Shown here: in pieces, positions 6,893 through 19,223 of the stretch
Layout: each line of letters starts with the position of its first letter
Numbering within the stretch: the stretch's first letter is position 1
Source: a virus
Strand: one strand, 5' to 3'
DNA: 49,866 nucleotides
IMG/VR virus record: IMGVR_UViG_3300025117_000090
Span: 1-49,866 of that record
The notes under the pieces: model-generated
Told to the model about the DNA's origin: nothing
The model's database searches: none
The model's input: only the letters and a program-made list of their open reading frames with translations
Made by a program: the position numbers and the translations under genes

Positions 6893-7056
6893 TCCGTTCT
6901 CCATTCCACTTCGAACCCCAGCTCTTCCGCCTTGTCTCTAACCCTGTGGGCCAGCTCCATGGGTACTGTCCACCCCTTCACGTCGGGGACCCAGTTGCAC
7001 CCCGGGAACTGCTTGATGAAGTTCTTCAGCTTGTCATGAAAGGCAAATTTGGCCAT
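6889..7056 (-). CDS. Small HARP-like domain protein
   Basis: This 55-aa protein centres on F-P-G-C-N-W-V-P-D-V-K-G-W-T-V-P, the W-x-P-x-x-K-x-W-x-x-P signature of the compact domain that precedes SNF2 helicase cores in HARP/SMARCAL1-like proteins and some phage helicases. Here it is a free-standing polypeptide. The ATG at 7056 has GGTGGA five bases upstream; a start at 7155 would overlap the preceding gene by 83 bp. I infer that it acts with the SF2 helicase encoded just downstream. Confidence 0.68.
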   Translation of the reverse strand: MAKFAFHDKLKNFIKQFPGCNWVPDVKGWTVPMELAHRVRDKAEELGFEVEWRTE

Positions 7057-7072
7057 TACAATCCACCAATCC

Positions 7073-7360
7073 TTAGTTTCCTGTAGTACCAGGGTCTTTA
7101 CTCCACGGTCCCCCGAGGTCGGGCTTGTCGGCCCCCTTTGAATCCTCTTTACCATAACTTACCTCCACGCCGGAAAGGGCCACCATATCGAACACGTTTT
7201 GCCACGCGCCGTACAGGACCCTGGCGGCTATCATTCCTACAAGCATCCCATTCGCCCCAGAACCACCCCTCTCCACTATCTTCTCTTCAAGGACGTCCTC
7301 CAGCTCGCGGGCAATCTGAGTACCAATCTCATTCAACTTCTGCATGTCCATATCACTCAT
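7073..7360 (-). CDS. Hypothetical helical protein
   Basis: This 95-aa protein starts M-S-D-M-D-M-Q. A GAGGA site five bases upstream fixes the ATG at 7360, which overlaps the end of the zinc-ribbon gene. The first 65 residues are amphipathic helix; the tail is Gly/Asp/Lys rich and probably disordered. Function unknown. Confidence 0.7.
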   Translation of the reverse strand: MSDMDMQKLNEIGTQIARELEDVLEEKIVERGGSGANGMLVGMIAARVLYGAWQNVFDMVALSGVEVSYGKEDSKGADKPDLGGPWSKDPGTTGN

Positions 7361-7562
7361 GCTCATCCTCCTCGAATAGGCCGAGCGGCCAGTTAGCATC
7401 ATCTTCCGGGTAATCATCATTCACAAGCGTGACGCCCATCGTGCGCCTAATGTAGTGCGTGCCTCCGTCAACAAACTCCCCACATGCACATTGCTGAAAG
7501 TCATGCACATGCTTGCTCTCAAGCACCGCCCGACATTTTTGGCATACCCACCTGGTCCTCAT
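7353..7562 (-). CDS. Small zinc-ribbon protein
   Basis: This 69-aa protein has C-Q-K-C near the N-terminus and C-A-C about 20 residues later, a compact four-Cys zinc ribbon, followed by an acidic C-terminus. GAGGAG precedes the ATG at 7562. Proteins of this size often bind RNA polymerase or nucleic acid, but no specific role can be assigned. Confidence 0.7.
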   Translation of the reverse strand: MRTRWVCQKCRAVLESKHVHDFQQCACGEFVDGGTHYIRRTMGVTLVNDDYPEDDANWPLGLFEEDEHE

Positions 7563-7565
7563 GTT

Positions 7566-8603
7566 CTAGCTCCTCTTCACCTTGTTCTTGCCTGCCCTAA
7601 GTAAGCCCCCAGATGCGAGTAGTAAGTCCCGAGCCACGACCGCCACATCCTGGCTCGTACCCCAGGTCGCGGCAAGGTCGCGGACTGAGTACTGTGCATC
7701 GTCCATGAGCAGTCCCAGCTTCTCATTCGCGAACTCTTCGTCCACCATGTCGGGGGACTCCTCCTCCATACGCAGCGTAGCCTTCATATCACACTCGGAG
7801 TCTATGGTCCAGTAGAGCTTGAAGAACTTTTCCATGGCATCCGACTGCCGGACAGTCAGGTCCAAGTAGTCTGAGTGCTCATCATCCGGCTCACGTATGC
7901 AAAGATGAACATCGTAAAACCCCGATAATGCCGAGGTCCCTCGAATCTCCGTGTCGATGTCGGGCTTGATTCCTCCCTTAATCTCGGAGGGCTTCCGCAA
8001 GTGGTGAAGGTAAGCAACGGTGCCACCCTTCATCGCGGCGCGGAGGTCCTTGATTCGCCGCATTACCTCGCCAATCTGCTGGACCGAATTCTCGTCCGCC
8101 CGATTACTCTGTGCAAGGGTATCGATAATCATGAATTTGATACCGGCCTCCTGAACGAACTTTGTAACCTCCTCCATGTGGCTCACGTCGTCTAGTAGGA
8201 AATTAAGCCGGTGGGCATAATAAATGGGGCACCTAAATTGGGTATTCGCAAATGGTTTGAGCAGCATCTCCCACCGATTCGCGGTAAGCTTGGCTGGCCC
8301 CTCCAACTCCAGGACCAGGACAGGCACCGCGCAGGTGGGCATTAAAGCTGGTACTATTGACTTGCCACTAGCAATGGACAAAGCAATCTCGAATGCAAAC
8401 CAGGTCTTCTTAGCTTTCTTGGCGCGGCCGCTGACCAGTACTGCCGCATCGAATGGGATAATCCCGGGGATAATCCAGGGCGGGTCAGTTTGGGCGTTCG
8501 CCCAACCAATCCAGTCCAACAACTGCCGCGGGGGCCAGGGCTGGTCATCAGTCCCCCAACCTTGAGGCAGCTTTGTAAGAGGTAGGTCCCCGCGCTTCAC
8601 CAT
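7566..8603 (-). CDS. RepA-like replicative ATPase/helicase (AAA_25 type)
   Basis: This 345-aa RecA-fold ATPase has an N-terminal region (residues 1-45), a P-loop strand V-S-G-R-A-K-K-A-K-K-T-W at 57-68, Walker B I-I-D161-T-L, a strand ending L-H-H-L-R-K-P of the hexameric-helicase type, and a C-terminal winged-helix-like segment. The P-loop lacks the second glycine of GxxxxGK[ST] and resembles the P-K-S-x-K-T-W variant found in RepA/AAA_25 phage proteins. It is the best candidate for replicative helicase or initiator, as no DnaB-type helicase or separate primase is visible. GGGAG precedes the ATG at 8603. Confidence 0.78.
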   Translation of the reverse strand: MVKRGDLPLTKLPQGWGTDDQPWPPRQLLDWIGWANAQTDPPWIIPGIIPFDAAVLVSGRAKKAKKTWFAFEIALSIASGKSIVPALMPTCAVPVLVLELEGPAKLTANRWEMLLKPFANTQFRCPIYYAHRLNFLLDDVSHMEEVTKFVQEAGIKFMIIDTLAQSNRADENSVQQIGEVMRRIKDLRAAMKGGTVAYLHHLRKPSEIKGGIKPDIDTEIRGTSALSGFYDVHLCIREPDDEHSDYLDLTVRQSDAMEKFFKLYWTIDSECDMKATLRMEEESPDMVDEEFANEKLGLLMDDAQYSVRDLAATWGTSQDVAVVARDLLLASGGLLRAGKNKVKRS

Positions 8604-8607
8604 TTAG

Positions 8608-8790
8608 CTACTCCCGTTCTGGCACATTACAGCAGTATGACAGCATTATCTCCCCGTCATTATACCCTTTGCTGTACCCCTGCTCATAGGCCTCCTCGTG
8701 GACCTGGTTAAGAAGGTCTTCGAGGTCCAGCTCCAATCGAAGGATGTGGTCTCGGTATCTCTGTTCATCCGGGTTCATGGGATTACTCAT
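8608..8790 (-). CDS. Small acidic hypothetical protein
   Basis: This 60-aa acidic protein is mostly helical, with a Gly/Tyr-rich segment (YEQGYSKGYNDG) and a C-C pair near the end. An AGGT site precedes the ATG at 8790, and the gene ends five bases before the RepA-like gene. Function unknown. Confidence 0.65.
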   Translation of the reverse strand: MSNPMNPDEQRYRDHILRLELDLEDLLNQVHEEAYEQGYSKGYNDGEIMLSYCCNVPERE

Positions 8791-9076
8791 TTAGACCTCG
8801 CTTTTTCCCCTGTTTTCTGGTATACTTAGACCAGATGGGTCCTGAGATAAAGATAACTCTCGGTTTCCTGGTAGGGTGCTCTGCCTGTGGAGCGAAATTC
8901 TTCCATAAACAGGGCACCCTACCAATCGGTTCATACCGCTGCATAGCATGTGGCACTATGCACAAAAACTTACGGCTTCCAGCAATCCCTTCCCCACACG
9001 TATAATCCGCTTTCTCAATCTGACCCGAGCTTTGTATTCCCTGGCATGGGCCCGAGCACATATCCTTCCTTATCAT
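8783..9076 (-). CDS. Hypothetical Cys-containing protein (antisense conflict with 8835-9005)
   Basis: This 97-aa ORF continues the leftward operon: its ATG overlaps the previous stop as ATGA, and its TAA overlaps the next ATG by 8 bp. It contains scattered Cys (CSGPC, YTC, LC, PC), a basic C-terminus and no recognised fold. The opposite strand carries a more protein-like zinc-ribbon ORF over the same bases, so only one may be real. Operon geometry favours this ORF; protein character favours the other. Confidence 0.5.
   Translation of the reverse strand: MIRKDMCSGPCQGIQSSGQIEKADYTCGEGIAGSRKFLCIVPHAMQRYEPIGRVPCLWKNFAPQAEHPTRKPRVIFISGPIWSKYTRKQGKKRGLNE
8835..9005 (+). CDS. Candidate zinc-ribbon protein on the opposite strand
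   Basis: This 56-aa ORF has two CxxC pairs in the right setting for a zinc ribbon: C-S-A-C-G-A-K-F-F, then 17 residues later the Y-R-C-I-A-C-G-T knuckle, with a P-x-G-S-Y turn between. A TGGTATACT extended -10-like element lies just upstream (8818-8826). There is no Shine-Dalgarno sequence, so it would have to be leaderless or weakly translated. It would be the only rightward gene inside the leftward block. Confidence 0.45.
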   Translation: MGPEIKITLGFLVGCSACGAKFFHKQGTLPIGSYRCIACGTMHKNLRLPAIPSPHV

Positions 9077-9372
9077 TGGCAGCTACAGGTGCCTTGCTTG
9101 TGGCACTTCTCTACGCAACCTGCGCCTTCCTGTGCCTGCTGTTGTAGCCGGTCCATAGAGGCTTGAAGGTTGCCCATGGCGGCCCGAAGGTCGTCATTCA
9201 ACAGCATCAGCCCATCCACCATGCGCTGCAACCGATTGATTTGATGCGTGGACTGCTTCTGCATTTCGGCAAGCCTCTTATGAAGCTCACCATTGGCTAG
9301 CTGGGCCTGTGCCAGCTCCGACCCGAAATCCCGCACCTGCTCTTCTTCTCGTCCAACAACTTCACATGTCAT
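9073..9372 (-). CDS. Coiled-coil protein with C-terminal Cys cluster
   Basis: This 99-aa protein has a long heptad-repeat helix over residues 10-80 (repeated L/Q/M spacing) and a C-terminal CxxxC...CxC cluster that may bind zinc. A GGAGAA site precedes the ATG at 9372; the in-frame start at 9402 would overlap the DUF3310 gene more deeply. It is probably an oligomer. Function unknown. Confidence 0.7.
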   Translation of the reverse strand: MTCEVVGREEEQVRDFGSELAQAQLANGELHKRLAEMQKQSTHQINRLQRMVDGLMLLNDDLRAAMGNLQASMDRLQQQAQEGAGCVEKCHKQGTCSCQ

Positions 9373-9793
9373 TTTTCTTCTCCTGGTTTTCAAGGTTCTC
9401 AAGGTAATACCGCAAGTATCTAATGGCCTTCTCGATGTTTACCTTCGCCCCTTTCTCATGGAATTCTGCCCTAGCTATGTACTTCAACGCGCACGCCCTG
9501 TAATGGTCTAGGCCCCAGGCCATTGTAACACGAATCGGCTCAGGGTCAAGACGCGTGTAGTGATTGGGGGAGATTGGGTCATCATACCGAAACCTCATAC
9601 CACCTTCCTTCTCTTGTGGCTCATCGGGCTCCTCCCTGGGCCGCCATAGGTTGTACTCAAACGATCCGAAGCGTTGCTCCCCCAGGCATATCGCGGCCTC
9701 CACTGCACATTTACGGCCGTCCGACCCCCTCCCGACATACCCTATCAAGCAATGCTGGCATGTATCGCACTGCTTCTTTATATCTCCTCCCAT
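9362..9793 (-). CDS. DUF3310 protein with N-terminal zinc-binding segment
   Basis: This 143-aa protein has in its second half the DUF3310 pattern: P-N-H-Y near residue 77, E-P-I, W-G-L-D-H, the A-L-K-Y-I-A-R-A helix, and I-E-K-A-I-R-Y-L-R-Y. DUF3310 is common in phages; its biochemical role is unsettled. The N-terminal 40 residues carry C-D-T-C-Q-H-C and two further Cys, an unusual zinc-binding addition. GGAGG lies six bases before the ATG at 9793, which overlaps the end of the regulator gene. Confidence 0.78.
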   Translation of the reverse strand: MGGDIKKQCDTCQHCLIGYVGRGSDGRKCAVEAAICLGEQRFGSFEYNLWRPREEPDEPQEKEGGMRFRYDDPISPNHYTRLDPEPIRVTMAWGLDHYRACALKYIARAEFHEKGAKVNIEKAIRYLRYYLENLENQEKKNDM

Positions 9794-10401
9794 CTGTCGC
9801 CTCCGTTCATGTTTATGGTTTCCGGTTCTTGATTCTTAGGTTCTTTCTCCGCGTAGTGATTCTCTACCACAATCCCCATCGTTTCACAAACTTCAATATC
9901 ACTTTCTAGAAACGCCTTGTACTGGGGGTCTTCTTGCAGGTAGGAGAGGACGCGAATCTTGTCGAGGCGGCGTACCGCCTCCTTATACCCTGCAAGTAAA
10001 TCCGCACGGCCTAAGAAGTGTTCGAGGGCCAAGATTACTACCTCTTGCTGCGTGAGGCCTAAGGCCCCTGAAGTTCTGCGAAGGTGCATACCAAGCTCGA
10101 CGGGCATTATAACCCGGACGGCCTTACCCTCGCAAGGGTCTTTATGCTGAGGGTACATAGTACTCTTCGTGCTGTAAGTCTTCCCCTCAGTGGCCCACCC
10201 GTTAAGCCGCTCTTGAACCCAGGCCGCGGGGACGTACTGCGCATCCTCTAGCTGCCTGTAAATCCGGAGACTAAGGCCTAGCTGGTTCGCGGCCTTAGTC
10301 TGGCTTAACCCCCGCGTCTCCCGCACCTTCACTAATTTGGAGGCTAATGCCTTGGCTAAAGGGGAGGTCCCCGCGGGAGGCGAAGAGGGAGGCAACGTCA
10401 T
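9778..10401 (-). CDS. XRE-type HTH regulator with RHH-like second domain
   Basis: This 207-aa protein has a Cro/CI-type helix-turn-helix at about residues 20-55 (VRETRGLSQTKAANQLGLS, then a Y-R-Q-L-E helix). Around residues 95-130 a beta strand (VRVIMPVELG) followed by two helices (LGLTQQEVVILALEHFL) looks like a ribbon-helix-helix module. The C-terminus is acidic. Two DNA-binding modules would suit a transcriptional regulator of the early region or a replication initiator. The ATG at 10401 overlaps the previous stop as ATGA. The HTH is firm; the RHH call is tentative. Confidence 0.72.
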   Translation of the reverse strand: MTLPPSSPPAGTSPLAKALASKLVKVRETRGLSQTKAANQLGLSLRIYRQLEDAQYVPAAWVQERLNGWATEGKTYSTKSTMYPQHKDPCEGKAVRVIMPVELGMHLRRTSGALGLTQQEVVILALEHFLGRADLLAGYKEAVRRLDKIRVLSYLQEDPQYKAFLESDIEVCETMGIVVENHYAEKEPKNQEPETINMNGGDRWEEI

Positions 10402-10574
10402 AGCGACTCACAGTAATATCTAAAGATGTCCGCACACTCCTTGTATGTAGAGAACGGGCCGTGACGATACGCCCAACTCTCATCCCAGAAGTACCATCCG
10501 GGCATAATCTCTTCACCAGTATCAGCGTCCCTAAAGCCAGTCTTGATGGAATGAATAGCTTTTTTCTCGGTCAT
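10398..10574 (-). CDS. Small aromatic-rich hypothetical protein
   Basis: This 58-aa protein is rich in Trp, Tyr and Phe (GWYFWDESWAYRHGPF), with a terminal helix. The ATG at 10574 overlaps the previous stop (ATGA) and its own stop overlaps the regulator start (ATGA), supporting expression. Function unknown. Confidence 0.7.
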   Translation of the reverse strand: MTEKKAIHSIKTGFRDADTGEEIMPGWYFWDESWAYRHGPFSTYKECADIFRYYCESL

Positions 10575-10786
10575 AGCAAGTCTTCTCCTTCTAGGCACGC
10601 CCCGAGTAGTTCAACTATTCGAGGCATTGGCATGTGGTCATAGGTCCCGCTTTCCTTGAGTACAACCCCATACAGCCTGGCTACCGCGAGCGATATGCGG
10701 GCGGCCAGGATGTCTACCTGGTATGACTCCTGTGCTTTAAGCAGTCCATCTAGCTGGCACTGCCACTTCTTTACCTGGTCTGCCAT
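10571..10786 (-). CDS. Hypothetical helical protein
   Basis: This 71-aa, predominantly helical protein starts M-A-D-Q-V-K-K-W. The ATG at 10786 lies five bases past the previous stop with AAGG just upstream; an earlier in-frame start at 10822 is possible. No recognised domain. Confidence 0.65.
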   Translation of the reverse strand: MADQVKKWQCQLDGLLKAQESYQVDILAARISLAVARLYGVVLKESGTYDHMPMPRIVELLGACLEGEDLL

Positions 10787-10790
10787 TGCC

Positions 10791-11168
10791 TTAGCCCCGC
10801 TTCCTCTCGTGTGCTCTTGCATCCCGTTCGAGTGGGTGATTCCTATACCCATAAATGCCTAGTAGCACCAAGTAGACAACCGGGAATAGGAACCCAAGTA
10901 CCAGCCATTGCTCGATGTGCCGGAACTCGTGCCGTACGGTGGCTAGCATGGGGGCTGGCGCCGTCACGATTGCGAATGGCATTGCATGACCCGCCCAGCC
11001 ATCCCATAGTCTCACCCACCATGAGTACTTTGGTACCATCCTGAAGTGCACCACACCCCCGCAGGCATAAATCACGGAGATGAGCCCTAGGCCCCAGAAC
11101 GGGAGCAAATAGCAAAGCCAGATTGGCACCGCAACCGGTAGTACCCACAACATCTTGAGCCATCTCAT
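10791..11168 (-). CDS. Membrane protein with HExxH motif (putative metallopeptidase)
   Basis: This 125-aa protein has hydrophobic segments at about residues 5-42 (two passes) and 88-107. Between them lies R-H-E-F-R-H (H80, E81, H84), a zinc-protease-like HExxH, and a conserved-looking N-H-P-L-E-R-D-A-R (E114, D116) follows the last membrane segment and could supply the third ligand. Such small membrane HExxH proteins occur in phages without known substrates. It is coupled to the upstream 58-aa gene by ATGA. The protease role is inferred. Confidence 0.65.
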   Translation of the reverse strand: MRWLKMLWVLPVAVPIWLCYLLPFWGLGLISVIYACGGVVHFRMVPKYSWWVRLWDGWAGHAMPFAIVTAPAPMLATVRHEFRHIEQWLVLGFLFPVVYLVLLGIYGYRNHPLERDARAHERKRG

Positions 11169-11341
11169 TCCCTCGTATCCTTTTTCTCCCCCGTTCTCCG
11201 GAGGCGGTACACTTGCATTTCAATGTAGCCCAGCTCCTCTATCTCATTCGAGAGGAGAAGGGGCAGGCTCCGCTTACCACTAACCTCCAAGATTTGTGCC
11301 TCCCGTCGTATGAGGTCGGCAATCTCATCTTCAACACTCAT
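11165..11341 (-). CDS. Small hypothetical protein
   Basis: This 58-aa, charged, largely helical protein starts M-S-V-E-D-E-I-A-D-L. Its ATG overlaps the previous stop and its TGA overlaps the next ATG (both ATGA), filling exactly the space between two other genes. Function unknown. Confidence 0.7.
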   Translation of the reverse strand: MSVEDEIADLIRREAQILEVSGKRSLPLLLSNEIEELGYIEMQVYRLRRTGEKKDTRE

Positions 11342-11544
11342 GCCTTCTCCTTCAATGCCAGCATCTTCAGGCCTTGGCAGTAACCACGCTCGAAGTAGTA
11401 GCTATCCTCCGAGGTGCCCCGCTTCAGGCCCCTATTAAGAAGGACGTGCGCCTGGCCCTTGTGGCCGTGAGCGGACATGACCCCCGCTTGATAGAACAAC
11501 GCTCGTGCAGTAATCTCGGGCCCCGGATAGAAAGACTTTCTCAT
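11338..11544 (-). CDS. Small hypothetical protein
   Basis: This 68-aa basic, helical protein starts M-R-K-S-F-Y-P-G. GGAG eight bases upstream supports the ATG at 11544 over the in-frame start at 11619. The A-R-A-L-F-Y-Q-A-G and G-K-A/Q-like helix pairs vaguely suggest a repeat-helix (TPR-like) hairpin. No firm family. Confidence 0.65.
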   Translation of the reverse strand: MRKSFYPGPEITARALFYQAGVMSAHGHKGQAHVLLNRGLKRGTSEDSYYFERGYCQGLKMLALKEKA

Positions 11545-11569
11545 AGTTCGTTCTCCTTTGTGTAAGTAC

Positions 11570-11788
11570 TCATTGAATGTTGATGGCGCGGATTGCTTCC
11601 TGGAGGGCGATACAGTCACCCGGTTCCATGCATAGCCCGCCTTGCTTCTGAACCTTGGTCACGGCGGCCTCCCGCATTGCTACGGCTGATTCGGTAGATG
11701 CGATCCGCAACCGCTCAACCTCTGCTCGCAGTTTGTCGCGCTCCTGGATTAGGCTCACAATTAATGAAGCGTCTATCTCCTTGCTCAT
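11570..11788 (-). CDS. Short coiled-coil protein (ERDxLR family)
   Basis: This 72-aa protein has a central heptad helix with Q-E-R-D-K-L-R-A-E-V-E-R-L-R, the same motif as in the proteins at 12672 and 13160, followed by a C-terminal segment with two Cys. The ATG at 11788 overlaps the previous stop as ATGA. It is probably an oligomerising accessory protein. Function unknown. Confidence 0.7.
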   Translation of the reverse strand: MSKEIDASLIVSLIQERDKLRAEVERLRIASTESAVAMREAAVTKVQKQGGLCMEPGDCIALQEAIRAINIQ

Positions 11789-12027
11789 TGAATACCTTCC
11801 TTCCAGGATATGGCCCAACTTCCGTCAGACCTGGGGGCAAGGTCAAACCCGGCCTCCGAAAGTTCGGCCAACGTCTCGGAAAACAATTCGCAAGCTACGA
11901 TTGCGGTACGCCCCTCTGCCACTGTATTACAAATCTGCTTCTCAATCCGCAGTAATTGCTGCTCTTTTGCTTGCTTCAAACATGATGCCGCGTCTAGTTT
12001 CATGCGTTCCTCCGTGTTAAGAGCCAT
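11785..12027 (-). CDS. Hypothetical helical protein
   Basis: This 80-aa helical protein (MALNTEERMKLDAASC start) ends in a short beta segment (GSWAISWKEG). I placed the start at 12027, where CAGG lies upstream; an in-frame ATG at 12054 overlaps the DUF4406 stop by 8 bp and remains possible. No recognised domain. Confidence 0.62.
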   Translation of the reverse strand: MALNTEERMKLDAASCLKQAKEQQLLRIEKQICNTVAEGRTAIVACELFSETLAELSEAGFDLAPRSDGSWAISWKEGIQ

Positions 12028-12046
12028 AAAATACCTGAATTTGAGG

Positions 12047-12424
12047 CTAGCCATTCGCGTCGCCAGTGATGAATCGCCGCAACGCGCAGCCACCAATTAA
12101 CCCAGCCTGTCTCGCTGATTCCTCGAACCAAATGTGCGGCATACACCTCTGGGCCTCCGTCATCTCACCACGGCAGCCTTCCGACTTCTCCCACCCGTCG
12201 ACGAACACAGCACCATCACACCGGCGCAGCAGGTCAAGCGTCGCGTCCAGCCAAAACCGATCATTCAACGTCCCATCCCAATTGCCAAACATGGTGTGCG
12301 GCATGACTGGCACTGCGCCGAGTTCCGCAAGCAGGAAACCAACATCTTCGACGTGGCGAATCTGCTTCGCTTGCTGCCACCGGTCCTTTGCCCGAAACGG
12401 GCCCGCTACGTAAATCAGTTTCAT
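12047..12424 (-). CDS. DUF4406 / nucleoside 2-deoxyribosyltransferase-like protein
   Basis: This 125-aa protein matches the DUF4406 pattern: I-Y-V-A-G-P-F at the start, an A-x-x-L-x-x-x-G-A-x-P-V-M-P-H strand near residue 42, a D-L-L-R-R-C-D-G-A segment, and W-E-K-S-E-G-C-R-G-E-M with a helix rich in E and A. The family is related to nucleoside deoxyribosyltransferases, which move deoxyribose between bases, and occurs often in phages, suggesting base salvage or modification. Activity here is inferred. It belongs to the compositionally distinct 12.05-13.55 kb segment. Confidence 0.8.
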   Translation of the reverse strand: MKLIYVAGPFRAKDRWQQAKQIRHVEDVGFLLAELGAVPVMPHTMFGNWDGTLNDRFWLDATLDLLRRCDGAVFVDGWEKSEGCRGEMTEAQRCMPHIWFEESARQAGLIGGCALRRFITGDANG

Positions 12425-12463
12425 TTCTTTGGCTCCACAATCTCAACACCGCCATCAATGTGA

Positions 12464-12682
12464 CTACGACGAACGCACCGACCACCGGGACACAACGGAG
12501 TCACACATCGCACACCGTCGTTCCGAGCCCTCCGTATGAGTAAGCGGCGAGGTGAACACGACAAACGGGCCATCCGCACACCATGGAAAGTGCCACCACC
12601 GATGGCGCGAGCTGTTTACGCCAGGGTCACGCAGCTCGTCCCGTTTTTTAGGGTGTGCATGATAGTAGCGTCTATCGCTCAT
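12464..12682 (-). CDS. Small basic hypothetical protein
   Basis: This 72-aa basic protein begins M-S-D-R-R-Y-Y-H-A-H-P and has a C-terminal C-A-M-C pair plus one earlier Cys, possibly part of a zinc site. The ATG at 12682 overlaps the preceding gene by 11 bp; a longer in-frame form from 12769 would overlap it far more. Function unknown. Confidence 0.55.
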   Translation of the reverse strand: MSDRRYYHAHPKKRDELRDPGVNSSRHRWWHFPWCADGPFVVFTSPLTHTEGSERRCAMCDSVVSRWSVRSS

Positions 12683-13160
12683 TTGTTTCCCAGCACTTCC
12701 GCGCCTCAGCATCATCCTGGCATTCGTCCAAAGCGTCACCCAAGATGATATGCGCTGAGTCGGCCGCATCGTTCAATTCACACAGTTGCGCATGGTTGCC
12801 TTCGGAAAACAGCAACTGGATCGATTGAAGAGTAAGCTCGGGCGCATCGTCAAGAGCAGTGTAGGCAAGACGCATTGCAGACCTCAGCCGTTCCGCCTCC
12901 AACTGCAGCCCTACCCTGTCGCAGAGCAGTTTGTCGCGCATCAGTTCGAGTCGCGCGATTACCACGTTTGCGTCTGCCAGCTCATCGCGCAGCTCGTCGC
13001 GCTCACGAACGCTGTCAACACTCTCAATGCAAGCGTCGCATCGACGGCCATCGCGTGTCAGCACACGCAGACGCTCCACCTCATTGCGGGCCTCGTCGCG
13101 CTCAGCCATCAGCTTTCGCACCACTCCAGTCACCATCGTATCTACCACCAATGTCGTCAT
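12672..13160 (-). CDS. Coiled-coil protein (ERDEL family)
   Basis: This 162-aa protein is mostly coiled coil, with A-E-R-D-E-A-R-N-E-V-E-R-L-R near residue 20 and R-E-R-D-E-L-R-D-E-L near residue 52, separated by a CxxC pair, and an acidic C-terminus. The ATG at 13160 overlaps the previous stop (TGATG). It is a likely paralogue of the 13160-13543 protein and lies in the GATC-rich, atypical segment. Function unknown. Confidence 0.7.
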   Translation of the reverse strand: MTTLVVDTMVTGVVRKLMAERDEARNEVERLRVLTRDGRRCDACIESVDSVRERDELRDELADANVVIARLELMRDKLLCDRVGLQLEAERLRSAMRLAYTALDDAPELTLQSIQLLFSEGNHAQLCELNDAADSAHIILGDALDECQDDAEARKCWETNER

Positions 13161-13543
13161 CACAGGTCCCCCGTGTTCAACCGCTCCACCTGGGCCCGAA
13201 GCTCGTCTCGTTCAGCCGCCGCGATAGCGAGCGCCGTAACCGCATCCACGTGCTCGGCTTTGAGCTTGCAGATGAGCGCCACCGCGCGGCACGCCGTCAC
13301 CTCGGCAGTTTCTGGACCAGGTGCGCCAATCTCGTCGATGATCACCTGCCCGATGAACCGCAACCTCACTTGAAGCTCGTCGCGCTCCGTAACCGCTTTT
13401 TTCAATGCGACCAGTTGCACCGCGCAAAGCTCCCTCGCCTCGTCGCGTTCTTGCCTGACTTGATCGCAAAGTCTGGTCATCCTCATGGCCGGCATCAGTG
13501 CATCGACGATCGCATTGTCGGGGTGCTCTTGGTCTCGTCCCAT
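13160..13543 (-). CDS. Coiled-coil protein (ERDEL family)
   Basis: This 127-aa protein has three E-R-D-E-x-R/x-L helical motifs (about residues 32, 53 and 112) with alternating heptads. AGGT precedes the ATG at 13543. It shares its repeat motif with the downstream 162-aa protein and the 72-aa protein at 11570, suggesting duplication. It is the first gene of the atypical segment. Function unknown. Confidence 0.7.
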   Translation of the reverse strand: MGRDQEHPDNAIVDALMPAMRMTRLCDQVRQERDEARELCAVQLVALKKAVTERDELQVRLRFIGQVIIDEIGAPGPETAEVTACRAVALICKLKAEHVDAVTALAIAAAERDELRAQVERLNTGDL

Positions 13544-13591
13544 TAGTACCTACCTTTCGTCATGATAGTTAACATACTCGGTCCCTACTAG

Positions 13592-14089
13592 TCAAGGTTT
13601 CTTTTTGCCCGTCTCTTCTTTTGTACAATAAGGGAGGCGGGGAGTCATGATTCCAATCCATTCGTGGCTCAAGCCCAGGGCGTGCCCCAGCTCATGACGC
13701 AGGGTAGCCCCTAGCTGTCTAGCACAAGCCAGATTCTGCACATAGATTGTAATACGTGTACCAGATATGCACCCGTCGCGGTGGATTGATTGGGCCGTTC
13801 CCCCGACCGTACTAGTTCTGGCATGACTCCGAGGTAGCACACGAATCGTGATGTAGTTGGCAAGGGGGGTAGTCTCGGATGTCCACTCGGGGACTACCCC
13901 CCCATAGACTAGCACGGACGCGGAACGTCCGTCATTCCAGTATTCAATACCCTCCTTAGTAGCTTGGATTACCTGCTCCCCCGTGTCCCCCGCGACTACT
14001 ACTAGTTGGGGACGCGAGCATAGACGGACCGTTCGCAGTGCGGGCGCACATGAACAGCACACAAGTAGCACACAAGCTAAAGCTTTCAC
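13592..14089 (-). CDS. Secreted metzincin-like zinc metalloprotease
   Basis: This 165-aa protein starts with a short hydrophobic signal ending in V-C-C-S-C, which could be a lipobox. H-E-L-G-H-A-L-G-L-S-H at 132-142 is a full HExxHxxGxxH metzincin site, and G-I-M-T-P at 146-150 supplies the Met-turn, so this is a matrixin-like catalytic domain. I chose the GTG at 14089 because GGGGGG lies seven bases upstream and it gives a clean signal peptide; a GTG at 14104 is the alternative. Phage-encoded secreted metzincins are unusual. Substrate unknown; modification of the host envelope is a guess. Confidence 0.8.
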   Translation of the reverse strand: MKALACVLLVCCSCAPALRTVRLCSRPQLVVVAGDTGEQVIQATKEGIEYWNDGRSASVLVYGGVVPEWTSETTPLANYITIRVLPRSHARTSTVGGTAQSIHRDGCISGTRITIYVQNLACARQLGATLRHELGHALGLSHEWIGIMTPRLPYCTKEETGKKKP

Positions 14090-14090
14090 G

Positions 14091-14399
14091 TCATAGCCCC
14101 CCACTGGATATGATGGCTCGCACGAAACAGAGATAAATCACGCCCTCTTCATTGGTCTCTATGCCTTCCCATGTAGCATGTACGCAGGGCGACACCCACG
14201 AAGGGGATGGATAGTCCAAACCAACCCTAAGAGCACAATCCCCACAGCCCCAATTCCACCCCGTGGGATTTCCCGCAGCAATGCACAAGGGGCAGGTGTT
14301 CGTAGGACCAAACCTGATTAATACGTCTGGGCTCTTAGCCGAGTGGATACGTATGCACTCATCAATTGCCTTTACCATCCGTTTTTCTTTTCGTGTCAT
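14091..14399 (-). CDS. Hypothetical protein with CxxC pairs
   Basis: This 102-aa protein has C-P-L-C and, about 15 residues later, C-G-D-C, consistent with a zinc-binding knuckle, in a largely beta C-terminal half. The ATG at 14399 overlaps the previous stop (ATGA), favouring it over 14453. Function unknown. Confidence 0.68.
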   Translation of the reverse strand: MTRKEKRMVKAIDECIRIHSAKSPDVLIRFGPTNTCPLCIAAGNPTGWNWGCGDCALRVGLDYPSPSWVSPCVHATWEGIETNEEGVIYLCFVRAIISSGGL

Positions 14400-14620
14400 A
14401 GGGCCTCCGTTTCGATTTTTCTGATTTGCGATGCACATTCCTCGGGCGTCCATTGCCTACAACGTGTGCACTCGCACAACTTAGCGGCCGCTTCTCGCAT
14501 AGCCTCAGCCCCAGATTTATACGCGTAGCACACGTCGCATAGGACAAACTCTGGGTCATTATTTACGGCATAAGACCCACAATACCCGCCTGTGTGCTGA
14601 TACTTGTTACGGCATCTCAT
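14396..14620 (-). CDS. Small Cys-rich zinc-binding protein
   Basis: This 74-aa protein has C at residue 3, then Y-C-G, L-C-D-V-C, and C-E-C-T-R-C, enough for two zinc sites, followed by a short helix. The ATG at 14620 overlaps the previous stop (TAATG); the longer in-frame ORF to 14803 reads through the neighbouring gene and is rejected. Function unknown. Confidence 0.68.
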   Translation of the reverse strand: MRCRNKYQHTGGYCGSYAVNNDPEFVLCDVCYAYKSGAEAMREAAAKLCECTRCRQWTPEECASQIRKIETEAL

Positions 14621-14907
14621 TACTTCCTCACTTCCTTTCGCGCATATGGGACATAGGCGTAGTCCCCATTGATTAGGGAATGGGGGCGAGTCTCTACACG
14701 GGTCATGGGATGGCCATCGGCGGGGGTCCAGACTATGGTCCCGTCTATCTTCACCCGCGCTATCTGACCATAGACCATGCCGCGCCCAGGGCTTACAAGC
14801 CATAGCCCCTTCTTAGGCCTAACGCCGTGCAATGTGGCGTCATTCTTAAGGTTTCGTTTCCTCTCACGAAGGATTTCGCGCCCCGTGTCTTTTAATGACT
14901 TTGCCAT
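14620..14907 (-). CDS. Hypothetical basic protein
   Basis: This 95-aa protein has a basic helical N-terminus (R-E-R-K-R-N-L-K) and a beta-rich C-terminal half (GLWLVSPGRGMVYGQIARVKIDG) that could be a small barrel. GGAGG eight bases upstream supports the ATG at 14907. A nucleic-acid-binding role is possible but unproven. Confidence 0.68.
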   Translation of the reverse strand: MAKSLKDTGREILRERKRNLKNDATLHGVRPKKGLWLVSPGRGMVYGQIARVKIDGTIVWTPADGHPMTRVETRPHSLINGDYAYVPYARKEVRK

Positions 14908-14909
14908 AA

Positions 14910-15188
14910 TCAATACCTCCCGGGCCTCCAAGCCCCAAATTCTTTACCATCTCTAAAGGCCACACCAATATCCCATAAGGTTGCTCGCGGCCACGAAGCC
15001 AGGCATGCTAGCTTTACCGCCTTTCTCATGGTGAGCTTAGCGCGGGATTGGATGTCCTGGTGAAAGGCGTGCTCTACCCGGCGGTAATGCTGGGCGCGGG
15101 CGTACATTTCCCCCGCCTTATGTGCCAGGAAACAGGCGCTTTCGACCAGCTCCTCATCTGTCGGGCCACTCCACTTTAAACCGTTCAT
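14910..15188 (-). CDS. Hypothetical helical protein
   Basis: This 92-aa, mostly helical, His- and Arg-rich protein is coupled to the preceding gene by an ATGA overlap at 15185-15188. No recognised domain; the C-terminal G-A-W-R-P-G-R-Y is basic. Confidence 0.68.
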   Translation of the reverse strand: MNGLKWSGPTDEELVESACFLAHKAGEMYARAQHYRRVEHAFHQDIQSRAKLTMRKAVKLACLASWPRATLWDIGVAFRDGKEFGAWRPGRY

Positions 15189-15373
15189 GACTCATACCCC
15201 CTTGCCTTAGCCCAGCAATCACCACAAAGGTCCGTAAGGTCGTCTGACCCCTCGTCCCACGATACCCAGCGGCAGCACGCCCAACACCAATACTTCTGAC
15301 AATGTGAGCAATCCCAGTCGTGTAGATTGAGGTGGCACAAAACCGCTTGAAGTTTTTGAGGCAACTCCCTCAT
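15185..15373 (-). CDS. Small Cys/His zinc-ribbon protein
   Basis: This 62-aa protein has H-D-W-D-C-S-H-C, then C-W-A-C-C and C-G-D-C, a dense zinc-ligand array. It overlaps both neighbours by 4 bp (ATGA). It probably binds one or two zincs; its partner is unknown. Confidence 0.7.
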   Translation of the reverse strand: MRELPQKLQAVLCHLNLHDWDCSHCQKYWCWACCRWVSWDEGSDDLTDLCGDCWAKARGYES

Positions 15374-15546
15374 GGCTCCTCCCCCGCCCTTAGGGCGTCA
15401 AGAAGTTTGATAAGGTCGTGGGCTTGGTTTGTGTAAATTTCACATCCCTTATAGTCCTTGCATAACATGCAAATTTCCGCTTCGCTAAACAGTCCGTTCA
15501 ATTCTTCTTCAAGCTCATCAATTCGTGTATCAAAATCACAATCCAT
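15370..15546 (-). CDS. Small acidic protein with CxxC
   Basis: This 58-aa acidic helical protein (MDCDFDTRIDELEEELNG start) has C-M-L-C and one further Cys. Its TGA overlaps the next ATG as ATGA. AAAGGGAAAG lies upstream of the ATG at 15546. A compact hairpin at 15580-15615 precedes it. Function unknown. Confidence 0.68.
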   Translation of the reverse strand: MDCDFDTRIDELEEELNGLFSEAEICMLCKDYKGCEIYTNQAHDLIKLLDALRAGEEP

Positions 15547-15579
15547 GGTCTTTCCCTTTCTGTTAGGTGTGTATTAAAG

Positions 15580-15615
15580 GTCCGTGATGTCCCCCTAGGA
15601 GAGGGGGACACGGAC
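15580..15615. terminator. Intergenic hairpin in the leftward operon
   Basis: TGTCCCCC at 15588-15595 pairs perfectly with GGGGGACA at 15603-15610 around a 7-nt loop, and GTCC/GGAC extends the stem outside one bulge. In the leftward RNA it lies after the gene at 15632 and is followed by CUUUAAU, a weak U-tract. It may be an attenuator, a processing site or a weak terminator. Confidence 0.6.
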
Positions 15616-15631
15616 GGGCCCTTACTACTCA

Positions 15632-15883
15632 TCATACCGTATAAGACCAGCCGTTCGCCCTTCCGTAGTAATCAACCTCGCTTGGAGGGTTAATCCCCTT
15701 CCCACAAATCGTATCCCCACATAGGTCGCAGTGCACCGTACGCCCCGTAAAATCCTCCTTTCGTGCCGCGACTAGGGGCCCCTTGACTCCTTTAGCCCCG
15801 CTCGTCGGATGCCCACACTTAGCACAGTACACCTCACGGTTACCTTGCCATGCTACTACGGTTTCGTTCGTCTTAGTATTCAT
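15632..15883 (-). CDS. Small zinc-ribbon protein
   Basis: This 83-aa protein has Y-C-A-K-C-G-H-P near residue 20 and H-C-D-L-C-G-D about 33 residues later, a classical two-knuckle zinc ribbon. AAGGTG before the ATG at 15883 supports that start rather than 15943. The basic linker between knuckles suggests nucleic-acid or polymerase contact. Function unknown. Confidence 0.7.
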   Translation of the reverse strand: MNTKTNETVVAWQGNREVYCAKCGHPTSGAKGVKGPLVAARKEDFTGRTVHCDLCGDTICGKGINPPSEVDYYGRANGWSYTV

Positions 15884-15966
15884 AACACACCTTTCGCCAT
15901 ACTTGCAGCGCTTAATTGCGCTGGCGGACTCTGCTACGTGCAAGCGTATGGCATAGAGCCCATGTT

Positions 15967-15990
15967 GCCTAGGCTTTTTATGGCCTAGGC
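15967..15990. repeat. Self-complementary repeat pair (hairpin)
   Basis: Two copies of the palindrome GCCTAGGC (15967-15974 and 15983-15990) flank an 8-nt spacer. They can form an 8-bp hairpin just downstream of the gene at 15996 in the leftward transcript. There is no U-tract, so RNA stabilisation, cleavage or protein binding is as likely as termination. Confidence 0.6.
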
Positions 15991-15995
15991 GGAAC

Positions 15996-16304
15996 CTAAT
16001 CGACTAGCAGGGTCTGCACCGCTCCTAGTCCAATCGTCACAACAAGTACCGCGTTTTGGTTTAGGACAGACTTCAGCCTAACCGCTACGCTTCGGGCATT
16101 GGCATGACCAAAGCTTATGAATTCCACAACCAAGGAAGCCTCACTTTTGCCTTCCCAAACACCCACGGCATCGAAGATGGTTGCCCCCGCTAGGCCAACC
16201 TCGCTCATTGCTTTGAGCACGTGCCCCACAGCGGTATCCCGCGCGATTTCCGCTCCGTCTCTGTCCGTCAAACCCACATAAACCCTATAAATTGTGCTTT
16301 CCAT
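15996..16304 (-). CDS. Hypothetical alpha/beta protein
   Basis: This 102-aa protein (MESTIYRVYVGLTDRDG start) alternates beta strands and helices in a way that fits a ferredoxin-like fold; the V-Y-V-G-L-T-D-R-D-G and T-I-F-D-A-V-G-V-W segments recall DUF3574-like proteins. GGGGTTT precedes the ATG at 16304. No catalytic residues are clear. Confidence 0.66.
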   Translation of the reverse strand: MESTIYRVYVGLTDRDGAEIARDTAVGHVLKAMSEVGLAGATIFDAVGVWEGKSEASLVVEFISFGHANARSVAVRLKSVLNQNAVLVVTIGLGAVQTLLVD

Positions 16305-16305
16305 A

Positions 16306-16542
16306 TCAAACCCCTTTCTGCTTTCGTATCCAATCAAGCGTACAATTCGTCTTATTGTAGTATTGCTGACAACCACATCCGGGTATGCCACAGTTCCTTG
16401 GGGGATTGCCCTTCTGCATATCATCCACGACATATCTGTGCACTGAGGTATGGTGGCCACAGCCCGCGCAATCCCGCAGAGTCTTCCTACCCGGGCGACG
16501 CCAATGATTAATTGACCAACCCCACCTATTAACCCGAGTCAT
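16306..16542 (-). CDS. Small Cys-rich zinc-binding protein
   Basis: This 78-aa basic protein has C-A-G-C-G-H-H and later N-C-G-I-P-G-C-G-C plus one more Cys, suggesting a zinc site in a mainly coil structure. GGGG six bases upstream supports the ATG at 16542. Function unknown. Confidence 0.68.
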   Translation of the reverse strand: MTRVNRWGWSINHWRRPGRKTLRDCAGCGHHTSVHRYVVDDMQKGNPPRNCGIPGCGCQQYYNKTNCTLDWIRKQKGV

Positions 16543-16554
16543 GTCAAACCCCTT

Positions 16555-16797
16555 TCAACGCTTGGTTTCACGAAGCTTCACAAACCCGCAATCCTTGCCA
16601 TCAGCGGCTAGAACTAGGTCGCCATCAGGCCCCGCGCGGCCTTCCACATAGGCCCCCGTGGCTATCTGGCCCTTATCCCTTTGCAAAATACATATGCTAA
16701 AGCCTCCGTCCTTCTTTTGCGGCCCACACGCAATGCGTGTCTTACGACCATCAATCTGGATTTCGAGCCAAAAATTCCGAACATTCCTAGGTGCCAT
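16555..16797 (-). CDS. Small basic beta-rich protein
   Basis: This 80-aa protein starts M-A-P-R-N-V-R-N-F and reads as a run of beta strands with many Lys and Arg. AGGG precedes the ATG at 16797; the longer frame to 16866 has only a TTG start. A small nucleic-acid-binding barrel is possible. Function unknown. Confidence 0.65.
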   Translation of the reverse strand: MAPRNVRNFWLEIQIDGRKTRIACGPQKKDGGFSICILQRDKGQIATGAYVEGRAGPDGDLVLAADGKDCGFVKLRETKR

Positions 16798-16862
16798 TTG
16801 TTTTCCCTTTCGTTGGTAGTATCCAGTGATAGCCACCTTACGATGGCCATCAGTGCAGACTA

Positions 16863-17246
16863 TCAAGCAATACTAAACCACCACGTGCCCTCGTTCTCGT
16901 ATAGGTAACCGGAACACGTCCCTTCCTCTTGTGCCTTATAGAACGCTTGCGGAGAGTCGTACCGTTCTAGCTGGCGGATATCCCCCGCGATGAATTGCAA
17001 CAGCAAGGCGTTTGTCTCTGTATCGTTCATATCCCCAATTTCCTCCCGCGACCATGCCCCGAACTCGGCTAGCCAACTTCTAAGCTCACCTTGTTGCTCG
17101 GGAGTAACCAGCCCTTCAACGGCCACATGTTGCAGAGCATTTTTCCACGTAATACGCCCGATGTTCTGCTGGCCCGTTTCCGCAATGGTGGCCGAAAACT
17201 CGGCACAGTCATACTCATCTACATACTTTGTGACGTTGATTTCCAT
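16863..17246 (-). CDS. Hypothetical protein
   Basis: This 127-aa acidic protein begins with beta strands (MEINVTKYV), continues with helices and ends in an aromatic beta segment (GTWWFSIA). AGGG precedes the ATG at 17246. No domain recognised. Confidence 0.68.
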   Translation of the reverse strand: MEINVTKYVDEYDCAEFSATIAETGQQNIGRITWKNALQHVAVEGLVTPEQQGELRSWLAEFGAWSREEIGDMNDTETNALLLQFIAGDIRQLERYDSPQAFYKAQEEGTCSGYLYENEGTWWFSIA

Positions 17247-17325
17247 GTGCTTTCCCTTTCCTTCCGTGTTGGTTCGTTCAAGTCTACTCCCCTCGTGGGA
17301 AGGGAGCAGAGTTGAGCCTACCAAT

Positions 17326-17421
17326 CTACAGCCAATCTCCCAGTGCGAGGGTAAGCCAGCCGAGCCCGCCGACTATCAGCGACGGCCCAAGTCCCATGAT
17401 TAACGTTGAAAGTAAGCTCAT
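17326..17421 (-). CDS. Tiny membrane protein
   Basis: This 31-aa protein is almost entirely a single hydrophobic, Gly/Leu-rich helix (MSLLSTLIMGLGPSLIVGG start, ending G-D-W-L). Its ATG overlaps the stop of the 43-aa membrane ORF as ATGA. It is too short for automatic callers. Operon geometry and the clear membrane character support it; function unknown. Confidence 0.5.
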   Translation of the reverse strand: MSLLSTLIMGLGPSLIVGGLGWLTLALGDWL

Positions 17422-17549
17422 TTCCGCCCGCCTTTTCTGGACTCTTCGTCCTTTAAAATCTCCGCCACAGCGACCTTTACGATTGCCGGGATAGAGCAAA
17501 GTAACGCAATGACAACCAAAACCACGCCCAGAAGGTACATCATCGTCAT
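17418..17549 (-). CDS. Small membrane protein
   Basis: This 43-aa protein has one transmembrane helix at about residues 4-26 followed by a charged tail (K-D-E-E-S-R-K-G-G-R-K). The ATG overlaps the previous stop as ATGA and its TGA overlaps the next tiny membrane ORF as ATGA. Together they form a two-gene membrane pair. Function unknown. Confidence 0.58.
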   Translation of the reverse strand: MTMMYLLGVVLVVIALLCSIPAIVKVAVAEILKDEESRKGGRK

Positions 17550-17764
17550 GCTCTCCTCGTCAACACGACGTTGTGTGTATGCTCAACACAACGGCCGTTG
17601 TGCACGACGGTGTAGTTCACCGTCAGGACCGGATAACCCCCCAGTCCCGCCGTGATAAGTGCCCAGTCTTTAAAGACGACCTCACAGAGACCCTTGTTCG
17701 CCATCCTGATTTGTGCCTTAGCTGTCTTAAGCTCTGCCTTGATAGTAGTCTCGGAAATAATCAT
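17546..17764 (-). CDS. Hypothetical protein
   Basis: This 72-aa protein begins M-I-I-S-E-T-T-I-K-A, a helical N-terminal half followed by beta strands (PVLTVNYTVVHNG). AGG lies upstream of the ATG at 17764, which is preferred to 17833. Function unknown. Confidence 0.65.
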   Translation of the reverse strand: MIISETTIKAELKTAKAQIRMANKGLCEVVFKDWALITAGLGGYPVLTVNYTVVHNGRCVEHTHNVVLTRRA

Positions 17765-17780
17765 GGGTTCTGCCTTTCCT

Positions 17781-17924
17781 TTATCGGGTTTTCCGCACGG
17801 CATCAAGAGCCGCTTCGCGTGTCCCAAACACACCTATGAGAAACCACTTGTAATCAATGTCTTGGATTTCCGCAATCCAGCCACCATGATTCACGTCTTG
17901 CCAGACGTTTTCTGTACGTGTCAT
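17781..17924 (-). CDS. Small protein, possibly AP2-like fold; first gene of the leftward operon
   Basis: This 47-aa protein is a likely three-strand sheet plus helix (W-I-A-E-I, W-F-L-I-G-V-F-G-T, then R-E-A-A-L-D-A-V-R). That layout is seen in AP2-like and integrase arm-binding domains, so DNA binding is possible. AGGG six bases before the ATG at 17924 supports the start. It follows the 18.04-18.15 kb promoter/operator cluster directly. Confidence 0.6.
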   Translation of the reverse strand: MTRTENVWQDVNHGGWIAEIQDIDYKWFLIGVFGTREAALDAVRKTR

Positions 17925-18036
17925 TTTCAGCCCTTTAGTTGTGTTTGTGTTTTGCATATCCACTTGCATTGCACACTGCGTGCCAGCATTTCGGGCCCGT
18001 AACTAGCTGATTTTCGGCGGAGCCCGCTTCCTGAAG

Positions 18037-18054
18037 TGCGAATAAGTTTACGCG
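18037..18054. promoter_or_regulatory. Operator-like dyad, copy 1
   Basis: TGCGAA-N6-TACGCG matches the consensus TGCGTA-N6-TACGCA of the nearby perfect copy at 10 of 12 half-site positions. It lies 3' of the leftward promoter at 18069-18097, in the leader before the first operon gene. Confidence 0.6.
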
Positions 18055-18060
18055 CCCCCG

Positions 18061-18078
18061 TGGGCATCATTTTACGCA
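18061..18078. promoter_or_regulatory. Operator-like dyad, copy 2
   Basis: TGGGCA-N6-TACGCA has a perfect right half and a 4/6 left half. It overlaps the -10 element of the leftward promoter at 18069-18097, the expected place for a repressor site. Confidence 0.58.
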
Positions 18079-18097
18079 CCTCGGAAATCTCGTGCAA
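18069..18097 (-). promoter_or_regulatory. Leftward sigma70-like promoter of the early operon
   Basis: Read on the minus strand: TTGCAC, a 17-bp spacer, then TAAAAT. The -10 lies within operator copy 2. It would drive the leftward operon from the 47-aa gene at 17924 onward, with a leader of about 140 nt. Confidence 0.6.
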
Positions 18098-18135
18098 TTC
18101 CAGGCGCTTATGGTGCGTACTACGCTTCGCACTAC

Positions 18136-18153
18136 TGCGTATAATTTTACGCA
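18136..18153. promoter_or_regulatory. Operator-like dyad, copy 3 (perfect)
   Basis: TGCGTA-TAATTT-TACGCA is a perfect 6-6-6 dyad. The flanking sequence (ACCTTGAAATC) resembles that beside copy 2 (ACCTCGGAAATC), showing that a longer unit was duplicated. It lies upstream of the -35 element of the leftward promoter. Confidence 0.65.
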
Positions 18154-18202
18154 CCTTGAAATCATTGAGAAATTTTCGGGCGTAATTTAGGCGTGGTCTC
18201 AT

Positions 18203-18618
18203 CTAGGTGGGAGGGTGACCGACTAGTCGTCTCTCCGACTTGCCGAGGGGATGCCGAGGGGGCGCAAAATATGCCGGTTTGGGAGCGGCCGGAAATGGCG
18301 CGGCCTCCCAGGTAAGACTGGTCCGGGCGGGAACGGCCTTACCTAGGCGCGGCGGACTCCCCCTCCCCCCCCTTATCTTACCTTTCCATACCCCGGGGTA
18401 CCTATTCCCTCGTCATGGAGACCTCAATGGCGTGGGGGAGCAGGCTCAATTGTCGCTCGAAATTAGGAATTTTTGGGGGATTTTCTGACTAGTGATGTAG
18501 GGAAAAGTGGGGAAAGGTAGGAGAGAAGGGGCACGAAAGTGCGATGAAAAGGAAGGGAGTAGTAATTACCACAAATGCAGTAATGATTACCGGTAGTAAA
18601 GCCCGCGCCGCCGGGAAA
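18203..18618. other. Non-coding control region with repeats; possible origin
   Basis: No convincing gene is present. The stretch holds a tandem 10-bp repeat TGCCGAGGGG (18241-18250 and 18252-18261), an imperfect inverted repeat at 18281-18309, a 7-bp inverted repeat AGGTAAG/CTTACCT at 18310-18316 and 18338-18344, the palindrome TACCCCGGGGTA at 18389-18400, and a purine-rich stretch with two TAAT-ATTACC-like copies near 18570-18592. Structured repeats between divergent blocks suit a replication origin or regulatory locus, but no iteron set or DnaA box is clear. Confidence 0.5.
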
Positions 18619-19086
18619 CTATAAGGAAATAAGTGTCTCTTCTAGGCGAGCAATCTGTCGGGCCTGGGCCTCAACCCGCCGCTCCAGGTCCTTGATTATG
18701 GGTGAGACCTGCCCCTCGAAGGCGACGTTCACATAGGCTTGAGTCCACCGCCCCGGGCAGTACTTCCGGCCCCTGGTCGTGTAGGTGGTAAGCTTAATCC
18801 ACTTTCCTTCCGAGTCCTGAGCCTTGGTGAACCAGCATAGTTCCCCGGCCTTTGCCCCGCAAGAGGGGCAGTCAACGGACCTAGGGCTGGCCTTGATCCC
18901 AGCTATAGACCCGGACCTGACCCCTCGGGGGGCCTCAGTCTCGGCGGAGGCTTTGGCCTTCCTGAAAGCATAGGCAGCCTTCATCTTTTTCCGGGTACAA
19001 AATTTACACTCGCCACGTACTACCCCCTTCGAAGAATAGAACCCATCATTGTCGTAAGAATTTCCGCATCTTGAACATTCCCGCAT
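18619..19086 (-). CDS. Double zinc-ribbon coiled-coil protein (possible regulator)
   Basis: This 155-aa protein has an N-terminal zinc ribbon (C-S-R-C-G-N, then C-K-F-C-T-R-K-K about 20 residues later), a basic helix, a second Cys set (C-P-S-C-G-A, then C and Y-C-P-G-R-W) and a C-terminal coiled coil (R-R-V-E-A-Q-A-R-Q-I-A-R-L). AGGAGG before the ATG at 19086 fixes the start. It has its own promoter and stands alone in the control region, facing left, as regulator genes often do. A transcriptional role is inferred. Confidence 0.7.
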   Translation of the reverse strand: MRECSRCGNSYDNDGFYSSKGVVRGECKFCTRKKMKAAYAFRKAKASAETEAPRGVRSGSIAGIKASPRSVDCPSCGAKAGELCWFTKAQDSEGKWIKLTTYTTRGRKYCPGRWTQAYVNVAFEGQVSPIIKDLERRVEAQARQIARLEETLISL

Positions 19087-19209: not shown

Positions 19210-19223
19210 GGAAAAGAAATATG

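Follow-up and report, generated by a model that had tools for sequence, protein, structure and literature searches.

Probable horizontal acquisition of a compositionally foreign early-gene block in a GATC-avoiding phage

Does a stretch of phage DNA that retains an otherwise avoided word at its normal frequency mark genes that came from elsewhere? This question is raised by a block of early genes (positions 12047 to 13543) in IMGVR_UViG_3300025117_000090, a single uncultivated virus record of 49,866 bp, the whole of which was analysed here and is called the window. A preliminary description of the window had proposed that this block escapes a genome-wide depletion of GATC, and that its DUF4406 and ERDEL coiled-coil genes were recently acquired.

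The phage genome and its avoidance of GATC and GCGC

Bases 7 to 132 of the window are an exact 126-nt repeat of 49741 to 49866 (the first six bases are unmatched), and the frame of the family-A DNA polymerase runs off both ends of the contig, both pieces carrying the end repeat. It is therefore very probable that the contig circularizes at about 49.7 kb and is nearly complete. The minus strand carries the early genes, which occupy roughly the first 19 kb and the part past 47 kb; late genes, encoding terminase, portal, capsid, a 1227-amino-acid protein and amidase, lie on the plus strand. No tRNA or Rfam family was detected in the window.

In the GenBank phage collection, no match was obtained by megablast of positions 10000 to 16000, by blastn of 12000 to 13600 or with the portal. 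The capsid matched 12 records at 22 to 24% identity, 11 of them actinobacterial phages, and the terminase matched 998 phage records, all below 60% identity, those listed covering 39% of the protein at about 27% identity. Searching viral contigs with a portal alignment (the window plus L002) yielded 15 loci, of which ten are 41 to 44% identical over their best segment, the other five being weaker or partial; the remaining viral-contig scans returned L002 alone, L004 alone or nothing, and scans of genome contigs, portal alignment included, returned no relative. No close sister phage was found in the phage collection and the viral contigs, and hence no empty site; nor did the searches reveal a donor or a host. 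In their early region the relatives found are too remote: when the early genes were compared with those of a 46-kb relative, only 9778 to 10401 matched.

An exact count gave 25 GATC sites in the 49,866 bp, where base frequencies predict 189, a maximal-order Markov model 167 and a first-order one 209; this bears out the strong avoidance that the preliminary description had put at about 28 sites against about 190. GATC has the lowest observed-to-expected ratio of all 256 tetramers (0.15), followed by GCGC (0.63), and a palindrome so strongly under-represented (25 against 167) is what characterizes a restriction-site-avoiding phage. We also conditioned expectations on the encoded proteins, by resampling their codons from the phage's own codon usage. 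Outside the block, coding GATC then stood at 20 against 185.2 (0.11), or 20 against 158.4 by a local Markov model, and GCGC at 105 against 230.4 given the proteins (0.46). One-end neighbour words of GATC were enriched outside the block (1.30) and reached 1.18 inside it.

GATC was also counted in relatives whose portal or terminase is about 42% identical. In the portal relatives and further pieces its ratio lay between 0.19 and 0.75, except in L016 (0.89) and L002 (0.95); avoidance is thus common but not universal in the clade, and among the phages seen it is strongest in the present one. Since L002 and L016 are portal relatives without GATC avoidance, the trait was gained or lost within the clade. 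The three pieces of the 46-kb relative held 54 GATC sites against about 173 expected (0.31) and did not avoid GCGC (176 sites against about 107 expected).

In their study of restriction-site avoidance by phages, Rusinov et al. 2018 (PMC6286503) class GATC as a Type IIM site, describe it as under-represented in every one of 46 phages with hosts that encode the corresponding enzymes, and give near-complete site elimination as more frequent in non-temperate phages. The present case is alike in that one palindrome, GATC, is strongly under-represented in a dsDNA phage; it differs in that our focus is a block that escapes. The depletion is consistent with restriction pressure, with a host enzyme as its putative agent. 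Avoidance of GATC is shared with the GATC-free phage phiX174, for which PMC5014478 discusses evasion of mismatch repair and links it to the methyl-directed system of E. coli. Such evasion is less apt for the present large dsDNA phage, because it would leave the additional avoidance of GCGC unexplained.

GATC frequency, base composition and edges of the block

Within the block, GATC proved to be close to the random expectation, as had been claimed: five sites were found against 4.8 by codon resampling (1.04) or 8.0 by the local Markov model, compared to 20 against 185.2 elsewhere. All five positions quoted earlier were exact (Table 1); a sixth site lies just outside the block, and no GATC starts between 13509 and 18894. 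Neither of the two outcomes named beforehand as speaking against an escape, a lack of depletion elsewhere and a lack of contrast at the block, was observed. GCGC was released as well, with 19 sites against 13.1 given the proteins (1.45) and against 4.1 for the length.

How surprising the GATC cluster is depends on whether its place is taken as given. With the place fixed in advance, P was 0.0008 to 0.0009 under uniform weights, 0.006 under local-Markov weights and 0.0003 under codon weights. Allowing any place, P was 0.098 for at least five sites in a 1497-bp window, 0.056 for at least five in a 1250-bp window and 0.028 for at least six in 1807 bp. A Kulldorff-type scan gave P = 0.33, its best cluster being the three sites from 13340 to 13508, and a gene-run scan conditioned on the proteins gave P = 0.012, its best run being 11570 to 13543 (6 sites against 0.92). 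GATC positions alone are therefore not decisive, since P ranges from 0.33 to 0.012 once the choice of place is counted; corrected in this way, their clustering is weak to moderate evidence and cannot carry the claim. Pockets of GATC arise without foreignness, too, since the densest one in the relative G012 (7 sites in 1.5 kb) is no outlier in composition.

The place of the block can nevertheless be fixed independently of GATC, because dinucleotide composition alone peaks there: the most deviant 1500-bp window, in a scan that did not count GATC, was 12051 to 13550, and it holds five GATC sites (P = 0.0008). The most deviant window of 1000 bp (12451 to 13450) holds only two (P = 0.09), that of 2000 bp six (P = 0.0004) and that of 3000 bp five (P = 0.015).

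Composition, rather than GATC clustering, is thus the main and strong evidence for foreignness. The block ranks first of 194 windows for both dinucleotide and tetranucleotide deviation, its dinucleotide deviation being 0.213 against a mean of 0.080 (s.d. 0.029). It is short of TA, CC/GG and AG/CT and rich in CG, GC and CA/TG. Depletion of TA is the strong clue in its base style: rho is 0.30 to 0.36 against 0.89, and the block contains 23 TA per 1497 bp, compared to a median of 60 and a lowest value of 47 in windows that do not overlap it. The block also holds three of the five genes most deficient in TA given their proteins (70 genes), and neither flanking gene is deficient. The preliminary description had seen a different base style in GCGC and CGTCGCG words. 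The GCGC part holds up; CGTCGCG (5 copies against 0.3 for the length) is a weak clue, because four copies encode repeated Glu-Arg-Asp-Glu.

Such repeats fit a reading in which the genes are native, Arg/Glu/Asp/Ala-rich coiled coils produce the odd base style and the GATC pocket arose by chance, for which the scan P of up to 0.33 leaves room. Synonymous codon usage agrees with it: the codon-usage distance suggested as a check does not single the block out, since at least 8 of the 69 other gene pools have a z above its pooled value of 3.7. The nearby gene 11570-11818 and gene 9073-9402 likewise carry, by eye, similar heptad-like stretches and have ordinary TA, so that such proteins are not themselves foreign to the phage. 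However, when the proteins of three genes of the block, pooled, were rewritten in the phage's codons, the deviation fell to 0.127 ± 0.018 against 0.221 observed, with none of 500 simulations as high, and none of the 70 other pools of adjacent genes showed so large an excess beyond its proteins. The composition thus differs beyond protein content. The DUF4406 gene is TA-deficient as well (5 against 11.5 given its protein), and the release of GCGC is a further point against native origin, a reading that is largely refuted and that we consider very unlikely.

The limits of the block, as given in the preliminary description, were recovered to within about 25 bases without use of GATC. The sliding window (50-bp steps) peaked as described above, and segmentation of positions 1 to 19400 from many starts reached 12053 to 13520 from 35 of 179 starts with a log-likelihood ratio (LLR) of 88.1, or 12052 to 13519 when started at the proposed limits; 100 Markov simulations, searched from fewer starts, gave an LLR of at most 26.6. 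A broader segment, 11858 to 18178, scored higher still (LLR 92.9, from 33 of 179 starts). Other early segments, with LLRs of up to 55.8, also exceeded the simulated maximum, and late-region segments reached 89.5, the simulations covering the early region only. Because these broader, other early and late segments score high too, mosaicism in this genome extends over several scales, with the block as the most extreme element of 1.5 kb.

The mosaic unit might accordingly be larger or older, with foreign segments extending over 11858 to 18178 or 11570 to 13543 and the block only their extreme part. The score of the broader segment, the best GATC gene run and a deviant gene pool at 16863 to 18202 all point that way. 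The recurrence of the edges at 12053 and 13520, the ordinary or high TA of both flanking genes and the GATC-free stretch from 13509 to 18894 do not, and on balance we find a larger unit improbable.

Genes of the block and their neighbours

The block comprises four open reading frames (ORFs) in the same direction (Table 1). The first three overlap at stop/start (the start of gene B with the end of gene A, that of the 72-amino-acid ORF with the end of gene B), and the module is therefore probably co-expressed, judging from this arrangement.

Table 1. Coordinates of the block, its reading frames and other features of the window
Feature	Position	Strand	Basis or remarks
Family-A DNA polymerase with N-terminal uracil-DNA glycosylase domain	1-1548, continuing 48967-49866	-	
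Short gene with ERDKLRAEVERL stretch	11570-11818	-	Holds the sixth GATC (11702); TA 9 against 10.8
Native downstream gene	11785-12003	-	Likely start ATG 12003 behind GGAGG; TA 8 against 5.7 expected
Foreign-composition, GATC-undepleted cassette of four co-directional ORFs	12047-13543	-	Composition scan, segmentation, GATC and GCGC counts
DUF4406/DUF7768 gene, nucleoside 2-deoxyribosyltransferase-like, 125 aa	12047-12424	-	Profile matches; 1 GATC (12259)
Small ORF, 72 aa, 4 Trp and 3 Cys	12464-12682	-	Reading frame; gene status uncertain
ERDEL coiled-coil gene B, 163 aa	12672-13163	-	ORF; 1 GATC (12819)
ERDEL coiled-coil gene A, 127 aa	13160-13543	-	ORF; 3 GATC (13340, 13462, 13508)
Native upstream gene, HELGHALGLSH motif	13592-14104	-	Metallopeptidase matches below cut-off; TA 30 against 22.3 expected

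Gene A shows the largest TA deficit of the 70 genes (3 against 11.4 given its protein), and gene B is also deficient (8 against 16.4). No Pfam, PHROG or NCBIfam match was obtained for the gene A product, and none by tblastn in phages; the gene B product matched nothing in Pfam or PHROG, or by tblastn in phages or plasmids, and its one NCBIfam match was at chance level (12 bits against a cut-off of 500). A structure prediction for the latter was all-helical at low confidence (mean pLDDT 56). Both ERDEL proteins are ORFans predicted to be helical coiled coils, and they are probably small early accessory or host-interaction proteins. Ead/Ea22-like proteins are also phage coiled-coil proteins; membership of A and B among these was considered but is not supported, the two having no Pfam or PHROG family at E ≤ 0.01. 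The 72-amino-acid ORF fell outside the list of the ten genes most deficient in TA, and gave no Pfam or NCBIfam family and no tblastn match in phages.

Both neighbours of the block are intact and not poor in TA. Inside the upstream, metallopeptidase-like gene lies an inverted repeat (13864 to 13902) with 16-nt arms, 88% complementary, and a 7-nt loop. The gene that holds the sixth GATC is probably native, because its TA content is ordinary.

The DUF4406 protein matched PF24963 at 28 bits (cut-off 26), PF14359 at 27 bits (cut-off 22) and phrog_355 at E = 3.2e-20; no NCBIfam match and no PDB sequence match was found. Aligned with six phage homologues it has 17 invariant columns, including G8, P9, H43, D70, S81, G83 and E87, and the residues of the family (GP, H, CD, S.G...E) are kept; E87 we take to be catalytic. 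A single-sequence structure model was poor (pLDDT 42) and unusable. The protein is probably an enzyme that cleaves off or transfers the base of deoxynucleosides or of deoxynucleoside 5'-monophosphates, and its putative role would probably be remodelling of the nucleotide pool during infection. By tblastn it matched 184 phage records, all below 60% identity, and one plasmid record, and was found in none of the 13 related records searched, most of which are short fragments.

Of six phage neighbourhoods viewed, four have a DNA methylase gene next to the DUF4406 homologue, annotated as adenine-specific in three of the four; given this and the 184 records, genes of this type are widely spread among phages. 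The phrog_355/DUF4406 genes of Gorganvirus, Nonanavirus and Casjensviridae encode a homologous protein with the conserved residues at 31 to 38% identity, and they are the ones that lie beside a methylase in four of six cases, whereas the gene described here adjoins coiled-coil ORFans. This makes it conceivable that the block is a piece of a phage module linked to a methylase, and that the donor shielded its GATC by methylation rather than by losing sites. We regard such an origin as unlikely; if true, the module moved without its methylase and became a restriction liability in a GATC-avoiding phage, and GATC density could serve as a clock for when genes arrived in phages of this kind. Searches for a methylase that might account for GATC tolerance, made with PF05869, PF01555 and PF02086, gave no match in the genome at E ≤ 0.001; the helicase gene 5139-6533 has a weak PHROG match to a DNA methyltransferase (phrog_11801, E = 1.2e-4).

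Origin of the block

Taken together, the genome-wide depletion, its absence in the block, the sharp change of composition at the edges and the intact flanks make it likely that the block entered by horizontal transfer, as an early-gene module, into a dsDNA phage that has lost most of its GATC and part of its GCGC, and suggest that it arrived recently. For the DUF4406 and ERDEL genes, the acquisition proposed in the preliminary description is accordingly supported by foreign composition, and its recency is what we infer from the retained sites. Several findings count against acquisition: GATC clustering by itself is weak to moderate evidence, codon usage is no outlier, no exact flanking repeats of at least 10 nt that might be insertion scars occur within 250 bp of the block, 11858 to 18178 scores higher, and the 72-amino-acid ORF does not rank with the ten genes most deficient in TA. 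To these come the gene pool at 16863 to 18202, which is deviant yet free of GATC, the two GATC sites in the most deviant 1000-bp window, the GATC pocket of G012 with its unremarkable composition, and the enrichment of one-end neighbour words inside the block as well.

An assembly chimera, with unrelated DNA joined into the contig, is highly improbable. The record is a single uncultivated virus, and the DUF4406 gene was not seen in the 13 related, mostly fragmentary, records; but the block lies on the strand of its neighbours, flanking genes are intact, both junctions are intergenic, and the contig ends overlap by 126 nt, as in a circularly closing phage assembly.

Under the acquisition reading, hosts of the phage would destroy or penalise DNA containing GATC. 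The most likely agent would be a restriction enzyme that recognizes this word, such as one of the DpnII/MboI kind, with an HhaI-like enzyme perhaps also acting on GCGC. As a result of this penalty, GATC sites would have been lost by mutation over many generations. The module would then have arrived recently by recombination from a TA-poor, CpG/GCGC-rich donor element free of GATC pressure. With 20 sites already present elsewhere in the genome, its five extra ones would be tolerated, their loss still to come.

Phage morons and other mosaic accessory modules are compositionally foreign and placed between intact genes. The block resembles morons in both respects and differs in having several genes and in lying in the early region; the acquisition itself is a case of the mosaicism usual among phages, marked with uncommon clarity. 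Our literature search found no paper that joins restriction-site avoidance in phages with recently acquired genes. Two avoided words, GATC and GCGC, are both at normal frequency where independent composition changes. If acquisition is true, a strongly selected word, GATC, reveals new arrivals among the genes that codon usage misses, and could provide a simple ranking of gene arrivals in restriction-avoiding phages as well as a measure of the speed at which sites are purged. The use of GATC as a marker was not supported in the single relative examined (G012). The pool of genes at 16863 to 18202, which deviates beyond its proteins (z 4.6) and is without GATC, is perhaps an older acquisition.
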